Below are positions 280 to 34,157 of a stretch of 34,157 nt of DNA, piece after piece. The notes below the pieces were generated by a model, which saw only the letters and a program-made list of their open reading frames with translations, ran no database searches and was not told the origin of the DNA. This DNA is from a virus. The stretch covers positions 1 through 34,157 of IMG/VR virus record IMGVR_UViG_3300027899_000003. One strand, 5' to 3'. Every line of letters starts with the position of its first letter. Positions within the stretch are counted from its first letter, which is position 1. The position numbers were made by a program, and so were the translations under genes.

Positions 280-350
280 GTTAGCTGGAGTTTTTTGTCA
301 GCCTATAACTTGACAAATTGATTTAAAAAGTAAACCTATAAACTGACAAA

Positions 351-566
351 ATGAAAATAAGTACAATAGATAAAAACAACTGGTACACAATGGATATTGA
401 AAAATGCGAATGGAGTAGCGACCATATTCCAGTAATTTCATTTGAATTAAATAACCTTTCAAATGATACAAAATATCCTATCCCAAAAGAAACAGGATTT
501 AATATGAGTATTGAAGATGCTAAACAACTTCACGCTTGGTTGGGTGTCGTTTTAAATGGCAGATAA
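351..566 (+). CDS. Hypothetical protein, cassette 1 cargo
   Basis: A 71-residue protein with no recognised domain. Visible features are a beta-rich centre (IPVISFELN), then a helix-forming end with the pattern SIEDAKQLHAWLGVVL. This last part resembles the end of the 84-residue protein at 33309-33563 (NKNEAEYLGKFLLAFV) in residue pattern only. The stop codon TAA is part of the following attC-like site (TAAC at 564-567). A 19-base near-repeat (302-320 and 335-353, 16 of 19 identical) leads into the ATG. Typical integron cassettes carry one small orphan gene like this; function unknown. Confidence 0.75.
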   Translation: MKISTIDKNNWYTMDIEKCEWSSDHIPVISFELNNLSNDTKYPIPKETGFNMSIEDAKQLHAWLGVVLNGR

Positions 567-642
567 CGGTTTGCAGATACACGCTGTGAGCGTTGGATTG
601 AGGGAGGGAAATAGCGTGTATGTGCTGTTATAAGCTGGCTGC
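558..642 (+). repeat. attC-like recombination site B
   Basis: A foldable site between cassettes 1 and 2. The left arm TAACGGTTTGCAGATACACGCT cannot be quoted as one perfect stem: GCAGATACACGCT (573-585) pairs with AGCGTGTATGTGC (613-625) with a single mismatch, and the outer TAAC (564-567) pairs with GTTA (627-630), with extra unpaired bases on the left side. Short conserved ends, variable centre and asymmetric unpaired bases are the hallmarks of attC sites. It shares the pattern TAACG-N4-GCAGATA and the 12-mer TATGTGCTGTTA with site C. Confidence 0.62.
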
Positions 643-701
643 AGTTGATTACCGAAAAACTCAAATCGAAGCACTAAACAAAAGAATTAAAAAAAAGAGG
701 G

Positions 702-1514
702 ATGGAAATAAATAAAATATATAACGAAAATTGCCTTGAAACAATGGCTAAAATGCCTGATAATTTCATTGACTTAACGGTTACTTCACCACCGTATGAC
801 AATTTGAGAACTTATAATGGCTATTGTTTTGACTTTGAAAATGTAGCTAAGGAACTTTACAGGGTGACTAAGGAACAAGGTGTTTTGGTTTGGGTAGTAG
901 CTGATTCTGTGATAGATGGCTCTGAAAGTGCAAATAGTTTTAGGCAAGCATTGTATTTTAAGGAACAAGGATTTAACCTGCACGATACAATGATATATCA
1001 AAAAAACAGTTATCCGTTTCCGCCTAAAAACAGATATTATCAGCAATTTGAATATATGTTTGTTTTTAGCAAAGGAAAGCCTAAAACTACTAATTTACTA
1101 AAATGTGAAAGCGGTAACAAAAAGCGTAAATCTACACAAAGGAATAAGGATGGAACGACAAGTTCATTTACATCAGAAGGTAACAAAGAAAGGATAATGG
1201 ACAATGTTTGGCTTGAAGATACTGGATATATGAGAACGACAAAAGACAAATACGCATTTAAGCACCCTGCAATGTTTCCTGAAAGTTTAAGTGAAAAACA
1301 CATACAAACTTGGAGCAATGAGAGTGATTTGGTTTATGATTGCTTTATGGGAAGCGGAACAACCGCTAAAATGGCAATTTTGAATAACAGAAAATACATT
1401 GGAAGTGAGATTTCAGAAGAATATTGTAAGATTATCGAAACTCGTATTAAAGATTGCGGTGGGCTTTTTTTTAATTCTTTTGAAACGGAATTGTCAAACG
1501 AAGCAGGAACGTAG
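702..1514 (+). CDS. DNA adenine/cytosine-N4 methyltransferase, cassette 2 cargo
   Basis: A 270-residue S-adenosylmethionine-dependent amino-methyltransferase (N6-adenine or N4-cytosine). Catalytic motif IV TSPPYD is at residues 28-33 and the cofactor-binding motif DCFMGSGTT at about 213-221, an order of motif IV, target-recognition region, motif I typical of the beta class. The variable middle (about 130-175, Lys/Ser/Thr-rich) would set target specificity. No restriction endonuclease lies next to it, so it is an orphan enzyme, probably modifying phage DNA against host restriction. It sits as the single cargo between two attC-like sites, unlike the phage's second methyltransferase at 23612-24853, which is in the replication block. 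Confidence 0.9.
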   Translation: MEINKIYNENCLETMAKMPDNFIDLTVTSPPYDNLRTYNGYCFDFENVAKELYRVTKEQGVLVWVVADSVIDGSESANSFRQALYFKEQGFNLHDTMIYQKNSYPFPPKNRYYQQFEYMFVFSKGKPKTTNLLKCESGNKKRKSTQRNKDGTTSSFTSEGNKERIMDNVWLEDTGYMRTTKDKYAFKHPAMFPESLSEKHIQTWSNESDLVYDCFMGSGTTAKMAILNNRKYIGSEISEEYCKIIETRIKDCGGLFFNSFETELSNEAGT

Positions 1515-1616
1515 CAGCTTGCGTATAACGTGATGCAGATAAGCGAAGGCACAAATAGCGTTGGCATTGTGCGGTAGAATTTGGGCTTTTGCTTATGTGC
1601 TGTTAGCAGTAGGTTT
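1514..1616 (+). repeat. attC-like recombination site C
   Basis: A foldable site between cassettes 2 and 3. GCAGATAAGC (1535-1544) pairs with GCTTATGTGC (1591-1600) with one mismatch at the same position as in site B, and outer TAAC (1526-1529) pairs with GTTA (1602-1605). An inner stem GCACAA (1549-1554) with TTGTGC (1567-1572) closes a 12-base loop. Left end TAACG-N4-GCAGATA and right end TATGTGCTGTTA are the same as in site B while the centres differ, as expected for members of one attC family. Confidence 0.62.
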
Positions 1617-1651
1617 TATCACGAATTATTAACTTAAAAACAAATATAAAA

Positions 1652-1912
1652 ATGACACAAGAACAATGGGAAGACGAAGCTGGATATGCAGCACAAGCCG
1701 AAGCAGAATATCAGGCTGAAATGGAATACTATGCTTACTTAGATAAGCTAATTGAAGATAAGCAATATCAATTACACGCTGTCGAAATAGCTTTAGATAT
1801 GCTTAATTCAAAAGAGTTTGCCAATAGTGGTATGTCGCCTAAAGATTGGTTAGATTCAGAAAGAAAACGTCTGGCAGTCAAAAGTCTAAATGATAGCACA
1901 AAGTCTGTTTAA
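1652..1912 (+). CDS. Hypothetical acidic helical protein, cassette 3 cargo
   Basis: An 86-residue, very acidic, almost wholly helical protein rich in Glu, Ala, Gln and Tyr (for example EAEYQAEMEYYAYLDKL). No domain recognised and no membrane segment. It is preceded by an A-rich leader and followed directly by the AAACTTACTGCTAAC element complementary to its own cassette start. Acidic composition could fit a small inhibitor or DNA mimic, but that is speculation; nothing else in the sequence supports a function. Confidence 0.7.
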   Translation: MTQEQWEDEAGYAAQAEAEYQAEMEYYAYLDKLIEDKQYQLHAVEIALDMLNSKEFANSGMSPKDWLDSERKRLAVKSLNDSTKSV

Positions 1913-1962
1913 ACTTACTGCTAACTACCAAATATGCGCTACATTTACACGCATATCCAACA
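1911..1962 (+). repeat. Degenerate right-hand cassette site
   Basis: Begins with AAACTTACTGCTAAC (1911-1925), complementary to the start of cassette 3, and continues with a short hairpin, ATATGCG (1932-1938) pairing with CGCATAT (1950-1956). No closing GTTA is present, so this last site is truncated or fused to phage sequence, as would happen at the edge of an insertion into a secondary site. Confidence 0.45.
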
Positions 1963-5850: not shown

Positions 5851-6133
5851 TGAAATTAGAACTATTGTTATCGCTAAAGTTAACAGTTATTGAACTGAAT
5901 CCATCCTGCGCTAATTGTAGCAATATTTGTTTTTTAAGTTGTAATTGTGCGCCCGAACTATTTAGGTAGTTATCAATTCCAACACCGCACAAAATGTACT
6001 CTTTCCAATCGCCTTGTGCGGAATTTATTATGTCAACAATATGGTCTTCATCACTGTCACCGATAACAAAATCGTTGTTAAATATCAGCGCATCACCATC
6101 GCTGTCTTGTAAGAAATCTTTAGCCGTTGCCAT
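5828..6133 (-). CDS. gp25-like baseplate wedge protein
   Basis: A 101-residue protein resembling the GPW/gp25 and Mu gp46-like wedge family: a short N-terminal strand region (GDALIFNNDFVIGDSDEDHI), a conserved helix start in QGDWKEYILCGVGIDNYL, and an end expected to complete the small alpha/beta fold. In contractile tails gp25 proteins sit at the baseplate and help start sheath assembly. It overlaps the spike gene by 14 bases and the LysM gene by 23 bases. Confidence 0.75.
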   Translation of the reverse strand: MATAKDFLQDSDGDALIFNNDFVIGDSDEDHIVDIINSAQGDWKEYILCGVGIDNYLNSSGAQLQLKKQILLQLAQDGFSSITVNFSDNNSSNFNVDAVRG

Positions 6134-23173: not shown

Positions 23174-23631
23174 GAACGTATTTCTTTGCCATTAGTGGTT
23201 AAATCTGTTTTAGTTGCTGCATAACTTCCATCCATCTTATTAAGTTCGGCAATTGCTTTAGTTCTGTCGTTATGGTCTGGCTCGGATGGGTATTCCATAA
23301 TTTTACCAGCAATAACAAATGGTTTCTTAATCTTAATCTCACCCTTTGCAATCTTGCTCAACATCTCCATTCGTTCGGCAGTTGATAGTATATTCTTTTC
23401 TGCTAATTCAGTTATGGCAGTTGATGTTGCATTGTTAATTGCTTGCTTAACTAATTCTTTATGTTCTTGGATTTCCTTTGCATACCTTTTAGCAAGTATT
23501 GAACCTTTGCTTCGTGCAGTATTGCCATTTACTTTTTTTTGTGCAATAGCCTCAATATAGGCTTTATCCTGCGATATGCCATTGGCAACTAACTCAATGA
23601 ATTTAGTGTGTTTAAGTGATGGTGTTGCCAT
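23152..23631 (-). CDS. terS: Terminase small subunit
   Basis: A 159-residue protein with the N-terminal helix-turn-helix of small terminases: FIELVANGISQDKAYIEAIA (about residues 11-30), then NGNTARSKGSILAKRYAKEI (35-54). A central helical oligomerisation region follows, and the C-terminus (KTDLTTNGKEIRSWSVKSK) resembles the usual end that binds the large subunit. It would recognise the packaging start site, often near or in this gene. Overlaps the methyltransferase gene by 20 bases. Confidence 0.88.
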   Translation of the reverse strand: MATPSLKHTKFIELVANGISQDKAYIEAIAQKKVNGNTARSKGSILAKRYAKEIQEHKELVKQAINNATSTAITELAEKNILSTAERMEMLSKIAKGEIKIKKPFVIAGKIMEYPSEPDHNDRTKAIAELNKMDGSYAATKTDLTTNGKEIRSWSVKSK

Positions 23632-24853
23632 TGCGTTTGATTATTAATGTTGGGTCTAACTTCTTCATTCTATCAATGATTACTTGGCAATACTTTGGGT
23701 CTAATTCCATTCCGTAACATTTGCGTTTAAGTTGGTGTGATGCTACCATTGTTGTGCCTGTGCCAAGAAATTGGTCAAGAATTATATCATTTGCTTTTGT
23801 AAATTGTAATGACCATTCCGGTAAATCAATTGGAAAGGTAGCAGCGTGAACATTTGAAAATTCATTATTTCTATTTGGTGCTCCACGATATATATTTGGA
23901 ACTGTTCCTCTAAAATTACCATTTGGTATTGCTCTACTTGCGTTTTCTTTTGAAGATATAAAAAACATATACTCCCAAGCAGATGTCATTACATTTTCAG
24001 CCATTGCAGGAGCACCGTGTCCTTTATCCCAAATTGCTACATCAATAAAATTGTTTTTGTATTGATACAAATACTCAATCAAAGCAATTTTATTTCCTGC
24101 AAGACTTTGAATATTACAAACTAAATATTCAGAATGTATTAATGCATTATTAGTAAATCCGATAAGCAAATCTAAATAATTAGATTGTGTTTGATTATCA
24201 TTATATTCATTATACTTATTATCAGTTGTATGTGTATTTCCACTTAAAGATTCGCTTTTTCCTGCATTATATGGTGGACTTGTAAAAGCTATTTGAGCCT
24301 TTTGCCCATCCATCAACTTTGCCACAGCATCGCTATCAGTTGAATCCCCACAAAGCAAACGATGTTCTCCTATCTCAAATAAATCACCAAGCACAATATC
24401 GGTTTCAATTCCATCAGCAGGCACTTCAAAGTCATCTTCTTTTGCTTCTAATTTCGTAGCAACATCAATCCCCCACTCAACGCAAACCGCTTCACCCAGT
24501 TCGGCCTCAATCAATTCAGCATCAAACACGATGTTAGCCTTTGCAGATGCGTTATCAGCCAATGCCATCTCTCTGCCTTGTGGAGAATCTAAATCAATGT
24601 CTGTGCGTTTTACCGCTATTAATTGAGTGCCATCGGATTCAACAATAAGAACATCTTCAATACCAGAAAATTCAACTGACTTGTTTCCTGCGATTATACG
24701 ATTGTTTTTATCCAAAAGGATACTTCTACCTGCTCCGAACTTTTCAAACGATTTGCGTATCATTTCTGCGCCATTTTCACTACCTTTATTAAAGTTCTTG
24801 TCATCAGCAATTAGTGATGTTGCCTTGATATTTTCCGTTTGTTTACTTTTCAT
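23612..24853 (-). CDS. ParB-domain / DNA methyltransferase fusion
   Basis: A 413-residue protein. Residues about 10-110 are a ParB/Srx-like domain with RSILLDKNNRIIAGNKSVEF and a following MALADNASA. Residues about 150-400 are an amino-methyltransferase: DLFEIGEHRLLCGDS, catalytic TSPPYN at 191-196 and SAM-binding DQFLGTGTT at 360-368, ending CYGMELDPKYCQVIIDRM. Such fusions are common in phages just before terminase and probably protect phage DNA or mark it for packaging. This is the phage's own second methyltransferase, distinct from the cassette-borne one. Confidence 0.92.
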   Translation of the reverse strand: MKSKQTENIKATSLIADDKNFNKGSENGAEMIRKSFEKFGAGRSILLDKNNRIIAGNKSVEFSGIEDVLIVESDGTQLIAVKRTDIDLDSPQGREMALADNASAKANIVFDAELIEAELGEAVCVEWGIDVATKLEAKEDDFEVPADGIETDIVLGDLFEIGEHRLLCGDSTDSDAVAKLMDGQKAQIAFTSPPYNAGKSESLSGNTHTTDNKYNEYNDNQTQSNYLDLLIGFTNNALIHSEYLVCNIQSLAGNKIALIEYLYQYKNNFIDVAIWDKGHGAPAMAENVMTSAWEYMFFISSKENASRAIPNGNFRGTVPNIYRGAPNRNNEFSNVHAATFPIDLPEWSLQFTKANDIILDQFLGTGTTMVASHQLKRKCYGMELDPKYCQVIIDRMKKLDPTLIIKRNGNTIT

Positions 24854-33587: not shown

Positions 33588-34010
33588 ATGAAACCAAAAG
33601 ATGAAACCAAGCCGTACGAATCGAGATTAATCGAGGATTTACATCCAACACTTGCGAATGCTTACAAGAAAGCCGAAGCGCAATTCAATGCAACACATAA
33701 CGATGTTCACGTTATTATTGTATGCACTTATAGAAACAATGCAATGCAGGAGGCTTATTATCGTAAGCGACCGAAAGTTACCAATGCTCGTGCTGGTCAG
33801 TCACCGCATAACTATTACCCATCAAGGGCTTTTGATATTGCATTTGTGAAAGTTGGTAAACGTGAACTTGACTATTCCGCAAAGCATTTTAAAGAATTTT
33901 GGGAGTTGCTGCAGTCGGCATCTAATAAATTAACTTGGGGTGGCAACTTTAAATCGTTCAAAGACCTACCCCACGTGGAGTTAACTAACTGGAAAATGAC
34001 AATCGTATGA
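33588..34010 (+). CDS. Endolysin, M15 peptidase family
   Basis: A 140-residue L-alanyl-D-glutamate or D,D-peptidase-type endolysin (M15). The zinc site pattern SPHNYYPSRAFDIAF (residues 72-86) supplies His74 and Asp83, and DLPHVEL (126-132) supplies His129 with Glu131 as the catalytic base. YRNNAMQEAYYRKRP (48-62) is the usual upstream helix. It would cut the peptide stems of host peptidoglycan at lysis. No signal peptide, so it needs a holin; holin and spanin-like genes lie beyond the cassettes in the same operon. Overlaps the 61-residue gene as ATGA. Confidence 0.9.
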   Translation: MKPKDETKPYESRLIEDLHPTLANAYKKAEAQFNATHNDVHVIIVCTYRNNAMQEAYYRKRPKVTNARAGQSPHNYYPSRAFDIAFVKVGKRELDYSAKHFKEFWELLQSASNKLTWGGNFKSFKDLPHVELTNWKMTIV

Positions 34011-34157
34011 CACGCAACACACGCTACACGAATGGTAAGGAGGTAATAACCTTTGTTAAGATAGATTTTATTGTAATCGGAGGTCGAAAGATTGACCACG
34101 TTTATTTTCGCAGGAAAGATAAACACGATTTAATTATGCCTTTGGTCGAATGGAATT
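34007..34157 (+). CDS. 5' part of 61-residue hypothetical protein
   Basis: Starts ATGACACGC, overlapping the endolysin stop, and runs off the right edge in frame. It continues at base 128 of the window because 34031-34157 equals 1-127. The full protein is 61 residues; see the entry at 1-162. Confidence 0.7.
   Translation, partial: MTRNTRYTNGKEVITFVKIDFIVIGGRKIDHVYFRRKDKHDLIMPLVEWN
34031..34157. repeat. Right copy of the terminal overlap
   Basis: Identical to bases 1-127; together they show the molecule is circular or circularly permuted. Confidence 0.93.

Follow-up and report, generated by a model that had tools for sequence, protein, structure and literature searches.

The window, that is, the whole stretch of DNA analyzed here (34,157 nucleotides), is a 34-kb circular phage contig with a 127-bp direct terminal repeat at its ends. 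Its host is not known directly, and we infer a phage of Bacteroidota; its terminase shows only a distant likeness to terminases of Flavobacterium and other phages. The lysis genes lie on the + strand in the order endolysin, a 61-amino-acid (aa) gene (g61), a block of cassettes, a holin-like gene, and a spanin-like gene. The endolysin (Peptidase M15; 33588-34010) matches PF13539 (9.3e-07) and phrog_465 (5.4e-16). The left flank of the cassette block is g61, which occupies 34007-34157 and, because the contig ends repeat, continues across the join at 1-162. The right flank is a small membrane protein of 84 aa (1973-2227), named holin-like by position and length in the absence of a Pfam or PHROG match. 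The next lysis gene (2239-2832) is called spanin-like by position only, as it had no confident family match in Pfam or PHROG. A tRNA scan of the window gave no match.

Between g61 and the holin-like gene, three + strand genes are each flanked by their own complementary ends, GTTRRRY ... RYYYAAC. Cassette 1 (280-567) comprises R' GTTAGCTG, a 71-aa open reading frame (ORF) without a Pfam or PHROG match (351-566), and R'' CAGATAAC; cassette 2 (627-1529) comprises R' GTTATAAGCTGG, a gene for an N6/N4 DNA methyltransferase (702-1514; PF01555, 3.4e-47), and R'' GCTTGCGTATAAC; and cassette 3 (1602-1925) comprises R' GTTAGCAGTAGGTTT, an 86-aa ORF (1652-1912), and R'' AAACTTACTGCTAAC. The R' boxes are GTTAGCTGG at 280, GTTATAAGCTGG at 627, and GTTAGCAGTAGG at 1602, and the R'' boxes are CAGATAAC ending at 567, GCGTATAAC at 1529, and CTGCTAAC at 1925. 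An earlier, sequence-only reading had claimed such paired start and end elements for the three genes. This claim held: all elements were in place, and the complementarity was reproduced (7/8 for cassette 1, 13/16 for cassette 2, and 14/15 for cassette 3). When the 12 nucleotides (nt) beyond GTT and AAC were compared in a 3-by-3 matrix, ends of the same cassette had 7, 9, and 11 complementary positions, against 4 to 8 for ends of different cassettes. Dinucleotide shuffles of the flanks did as well in 4 of 1,000 cases for cassette 3, 243 for cassette 2, and 819 for cassette 1. Cassettes 1 and 2 would not stand alone against such shuffles, and the window by itself proves only cassette 3.

The sites between the genes have the form R''-5 nt-L''...L'-1 nt-R', and three attC-like sites were found, all on the + strand. 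Site A (163-282) consists of AATTAAG, a spacer, long arms (165-179/266-280; 93% complementary), and GTTAGC, and its body is assigned to cassette 1 in the phage lineage of the window. Site B (560-635) has R'' CAGATAAC, the spacer GGTTT, the arms GCAGATACACGCT and AGCGTGTATGTGC, a single T, and R' GTTATAAGC. Site C (1522-1610) has R'' GCGTATAAC, the spacer GTGAT, the arms GCAGATAAGCGAAGGC and GGGCTTTTGCTTATGTGC, a single T, and R' GTTAGCAG; an 18-nt part of its arm, GCAGATAAGCGAAGGCAC, is present in 76 viral stretches. The predicted folds have −20.3 kcal/mol on the + strand and −16.7 kcal/mol on the other strand for site A (z = −3.2), −14.3 and −8.0 kcal/mol for site B (z = −4.8; 0 of 200 shuffles were as good), and −17.2 and −9.4 kcal/mol for site C (z = −3.4). 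The model thus predicts that the hairpins fold significantly better than shuffles and that the + (coding) strand folds better than the − strand. According to the same single-strand predictions, which are the only basis for this point, the pairing of the arms GCAG(A/C)TA and TA(T/G)GTGC includes a G.G mismatch and no bulge, and the asymmetry of the sites comes from the 5:1 spacer, not from a single extra-helical base. Two of the criteria for a cluster of attC sites lacking an integrase (CALIN) are fulfilled: at least two attC sites split by single-gene cassettes (here, three sites) and cassette-specific R'/R'' complementarity.

The sequence-only reading had the array at 280-1925. We correct this to an inserted block from about 163, just after the g61 stop codon, to 1972, because the block also takes in the first hairpin (163-282) and, at its end, an attI-like element (1923-1960). 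The other parts of that reading fared as follows. A cassette array between the endolysin/g61 genes and the holin/spanin genes is supported by sibling phages, by the folds, and by shared cassettes. The absence of an integrase held in the sense that no tyrosine recombinase was detected in the whole 34-kb phage contig. The statement that gene cassettes are unusual in phages is partly outdated, since a 2023 study described clusters of attC sites (CALINs) in virulent phages (Qi et al. 2023, PMC9892861), and phage cassette clusters as such are therefore already known. Our refinement is to place the cassettes in a Bacteroidota-specific attC family and to note their inversion relative to textbook cassettes.

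We examined 61 sibling loci from related phages, found by an endolysin scan. The order endolysin-g61-holin-spanin was kept in most of the fuller loci. Where g61 is retained, it is conserved at ∼86 to 96% aa identity, and the holin-like gene, where found, at 83 to 96%; the exception is L055, with a partial holin-like match of 76% elsewhere in the contig. The gap between g61 and the holin-like gene was empty (1 to 3 bp) in eight siblings (L003, L005, L028, L035, L045, L048, L050, and L054) and held different cassettes with the same anatomy in five (L007, L008, L025, L027, and L062). The check for empty sites and other cargo thus found both, in favor of the cassette reading, as do the attC-like folds and the cassettes shared with distantly related phages. 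Intrinsic terminators and chance inverted repeats are ruled out by the exact limits, the end pairing, and the empty sites.

One could also explain the locus by lysis-operon mosaicism, in which homologous or illegitimate recombination exchanges the genes, and the hairpins are leftovers or regulators with no present role in exchange. For this speak other siblings that carry plain genes without hairpins (the 65-aa gene and others) at the same spot, as well as the conserved flanking genes, which could recombine. Against it, the limits of exchange are exactly GTT and AAC between otherwise unrelated neighbors, the end pairing is cassette specific, and 99 to 100% identical cassettes occur in different contexts. 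We therefore consider mosaicism very unlikely and retain the cassette reading.

Several siblings showed further variation. L036 and L041 have further cassette-type sites upstream of the endolysin, at ∼5.0 to 5.4 kb (endolysin at 6001), which indicates a second insertion place in this phage family. The holin-spanin gap is a second length-variable gap in several siblings. In the g61-holin insert of L019, the 65-aa gene is preceded by an additional copy of the g61 3' end (...GGTAAATTTGAGTGGCAAATAATTAATTGA), which looks like a duplicated target, and the small insert of L026 ends in a tRNA-like 3' end (GGTTCGATTCCGTCTTCATCCAC), possibly a noncoding cassette or a remnant.

Beyond the siblings, at least 120 viral stretches had the site pattern AACGNNNNGCAGMTA-N25-55-TAKGTGCTGTTA, as did 22 genome stretches, the latter all from Bacteroidota where a taxon is named; by our own estimate, about one would be expected by chance in the genome collection. 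We read 177 sites, located in 145 loci. Across 57 pairs of consecutive sites, almost all of them outside the window, cassette-end complementarity averaged 6.96 of 12 positions, compared to 4.79 within one site and 4.70 at random. Cassette ends pair with each other, and R'' does not pair with R' inside one site.

Homologues of the window cassettes were found with the same limits. Homologous methyltransferase cassettes in L271, L275, L277 to L279, L281, L284, and L287 share the GTT..AAC limits and differ in their hairpins. Homologues of cassette 3 share both limits in L349 to L352 and the AAC end in L348. The carriers of close relatives of the window cassettes have terminases 35 to 47% identical to that of the window or none detectable; several of these contigs are fragments. 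Any tyrosine recombinase was encoded in 11 of 50 other carrier phages. A 352-kb Bacteroidota contig (L193) and the phage contigs L069, L258, and L265 share one cassette at 99% identity.

We then compared loci sharing a gene on one side of a hairpin. With the same downstream gene (93 to 100% identity) and a different upstream gene, the hairpin body was kept in 23 of 28 cases; with the same upstream gene, it was kept in 0 of 9 (random, 6%). Among cassette 3 homologues, the upstream body of the window is found in L349, L350, and L351 and not in L352, and L348 starts too close to the gene to be judged. The sequence after the CTTACTGCTAAC of the cassette 3 gene was unlike that of the window in 5 of 5 homologues, with L348 and L350 resembling each other. 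Among methyltransferase cassettes (60 to 96% protein identity), only the GTT..AAC unit was kept, and the bodies around it differed. The linkage of the body to the downstream gene indicates that the cassette consists of body, R', gene, and R'', opened at AA|C. The textbook criterion, an attC 3' of the cassette gene that moves with the gene, is not met, as here the attC is 5' of the gene.

The orientation of genes relative to the hairpin strand differed between phages and chromosomes: viral loci had 128 genes in sense and 20 in antisense, whereas genome loci had 9 and 17 (P = 1e-7 by Fisher's test). The genome sample is small, and prophages may account for some of its sense loci. The chromosomal arrays L186, L190, and L200 have the textbook order of gene followed by attC. 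The 128:20 ratio in phages, set against the textbook order in chromosomal arrays, indicates that phage cassettes are gene inverted. This inversion is likely a general property of the phage pool, within the limits of a motif-based sample.

The 5-nt spacer, which adjoins the AA|C cut, was the same in only 12 of 32 pairs sharing a body. Such reshuffling is not predicted by a one-strand mechanism, in the textbook version of which the spacer travels with the body; a spacer travelling with the upstream gene was not supported either (2/5). The spacer behaves like the overlap region of a two-strand exchange. In L069, L258, and L265, copies that share body and gene have different spacers after R'' (GTGAT, GTTTT, and GCTTT).

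This raises the alternative of Xer-type mobile modules like pdif, in which two strands are exchanged at double-stranded Xer sites and not at a folded attC. In its favor are a recombinase that is XerA-like without an I2 domain (described below), the spacer reshuffled as an overlap region would be, and arms without an extra-helical base. However, the long cassette-specific R'/R'' complementarity is only sensible if the ends meet in one folded site of a circle, the sites are long imperfect palindromes and not dif-like (11+6+11), and a single attI-like acceptor exists. We regard pdif-like modules as unlikely and integron-type cassettes as very likely.

The genomes with the site family encode XerA-like recombinases (P0001). 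P0001 has 25 aa between two aligned blocks in place of the 67 aa in IntI4, so the IntI-specific insert is absent. It scores 216.5 bits against NF040815 (XerA; "site-specific tyrosine recombinase/integron integrase"), just below the 220 cutoff; that model's name points to archaeal XerA, and we found no attC arrays described for it in the literature. In 18 genomes carrying the sites, no TIGR02249 match was above the cutoff, and the best matches were split into two parts, with the IntI insert skipped. Relatives of P0001 occur in 129 of 240 genomes of one family and the exact attC pattern in 8 of 240. Their co-occurrence is thus uninformative as evidence, and many of the enzymes must act on other sites, or attC bodies were missed by the pattern.

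The 3' end of the P0001-relative gene is often 60 to 230 bp from a contig end, and a search for the exact attC pattern beside such recombinases failed within 1.5 kb. A looser 1:5 geometry succeeded further downstream. In loci with enough sequence, arrays could be read from the recombinase 3' end: sites with 1:5 spacers numbered 15 in the canonical orientation and 4 on the other strand, compared to 6 and 6 for a control geometry. End pairing in these canonical arrays was perfect for four cassettes in L387 and two in L383. An attI-like motif, TATA..A|GTTR, was present in 20 of 32 recombinase loci, 83 to 119 nt past the stop codon (67 nt in L393), and its R' pairs with the R'' of the first cassette at 11 of 12 positions in L383 and L387. 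The motif was absent from the scanned stretch of the other 12 loci, some of which have almost no sequence left; the L410 contig ends inside the motif. A subset of the L384 to L414 loci without the motif (e.g., L385, L389, L390, and L402) has a conserved ORF directly after the recombinase (MN..IKLFESK.IRSVWNE).

At the right end of the window array, the − strand at 1923-1960 reads GTAGCGCATATTTGGTA G|TT and contains a box, GCGCATA, whose first base is 14 nt ahead of G|TT. A box [GT]CGnnTA at −14 of G|TT was found at 20 of 68 phage array ends and at 10 of 21 host attI-like sites, compared to 15 of 5,000 random GTT positions; the window has it too. The TATA-type motif describes phage array ends poorly (8/68), and the CGnnTA box fits instead. 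Given the shared box at the same spacing, the conserved hairpin before the holin-like gene is best read as an inverted attI-like site. As for the criteria of a complete integron, an attI next to the integrase is met in the Bacteroidota loci, the phage having only the inverted attI-like sequence; an integrase with an I2 domain is not met, as the platform enzyme lacks the insert and the phage has no detected tyrosine recombinase.

A more conventional explanation is that an ordinary IntI with an I2 domain, from another bacterium, moved ordinary cassettes and the phage acquired a CALIN. Phage CALINs are known, IntI1 recombines five of the six phage attC sites tested (PMC9892861), and the R''/L''/L'/R' anatomy is identical. 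Against this explanation stand the lack of TIGR02249 matches above the cutoff in the site-bearing genomes, the named hosts of the site family (all Bacteroidota), the existence of a dedicated platform that combines a XerA-type enzyme with matching attI and attC, and the flipped gene orientation in phages. These make it very unlikely.

We therefore favor reading the block at 163-1972 as an array of three cassettes that belongs to an integron-like system native to Bacteroidota. This reading is likely, with recombination inferred and not observed. That a XerA-type enzyme moves the phage cassettes is likewise a probable inference without an observed recombination event, and the link between recombinase and sites rests on synteny and shared motifs. 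In the proposed mechanism, a host recombinase acting in trans during infection would recognize the folded + strand 5'-RYYYAA|CGNNNNGCAG...TGCTGTTRRRY-3', cut at AA|C, and insert or swap circular cassettes at the attI- and attC-like sites of the phage. The recombinogenic hairpin strand is also the coding strand, so that transcription with the lysis operon, and hence retention, would be limited to cassettes with the gene flipped relative to the textbook order. A bolder reading, which we consider more likely than not, is a second integron lineage of Bacteroidota with a XerA-type recombinase without I2 and its own attI and attC types, in which phages would be the main cassette reservoir, with attI-like acceptors and a gene-inverted pool shared across distantly related phages.

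Among known systems, phage CALINs, especially that of Polaribacter phage P12002L, are similar: they, too, are attC arrays without an integrase, carry small ORFs and DNA methyltransferases, and occur in phages of Bacteroidota. P12002L also has asymmetric spacers (R''AACGTACTT...GGTGTTACC) and genes in the same sense as those of the window. It differs in its site bodies and in an orientation described as divergent (PMC9892861), and its sites do not match the window motif. In that paper, we found no empty-site comparison, phage-wide pool, attI-like acceptor, or Bacteroidota platform. Sedentary chromosomal integrons (e.g., in Vibrio) share the combination of recombinase, attI, and array, the cassette-specific end pairing, and the G|TT cut point. 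They differ from the present platform, which has a XerA-type recombinase without I2 and the array 3' of the recombinase gene; their sites have single extra-helical bases, unlike the G.G mismatch and 5:1 spacer seen here, and the phage members here carry a flipped gene. In CTXphi, a hairpin without extra-helical bases mimics a double-stranded site and host XerCD acts in trans (PMC4792948), but the whole phage integrates at dif, not single-gene cassettes in arrays. The only complete integron that an IntegronFinder survey names for Bacteroidetes proper is that of Salinibacter ruber (PMC9024848), a scarcity that may possibly stem from search tools requiring IntI. We found no description of a XerA-type platform in Bacteroidota or of gene-inverted phage cassettes in the literature searched, which is weak evidence because that literature left out preprints and the bulk of subscription journals.

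Extra-helical bases, which are accommodated by the I2 domain, block second-strand exchange (PMC4792948), and this domain is held to be the adaptation through which integrases can use folded single-stranded attC sites. If our reading is true, a natural platform without I2, whose hairpins have no single extra-helical bases, would provide a test of how the ability to use folded attC sites originated. Phage-borne acceptors would make phages active cassette exchangers and not accidental carriers, and the swapping of methyltransferase and unknown small genes into the lysis operons of Bacteroidota phages would be explained. The flipped orientation would offer a simple, testable rule for the cassettes that phages keep. 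Methyltransferase-type cargo would probably shield phage DNA from host restriction. Outside the array, a second N6/N4 methyltransferase (PF01555 domain, 413 aa) is encoded on the − strand at 23612-24853, adjoining the terminase genes.
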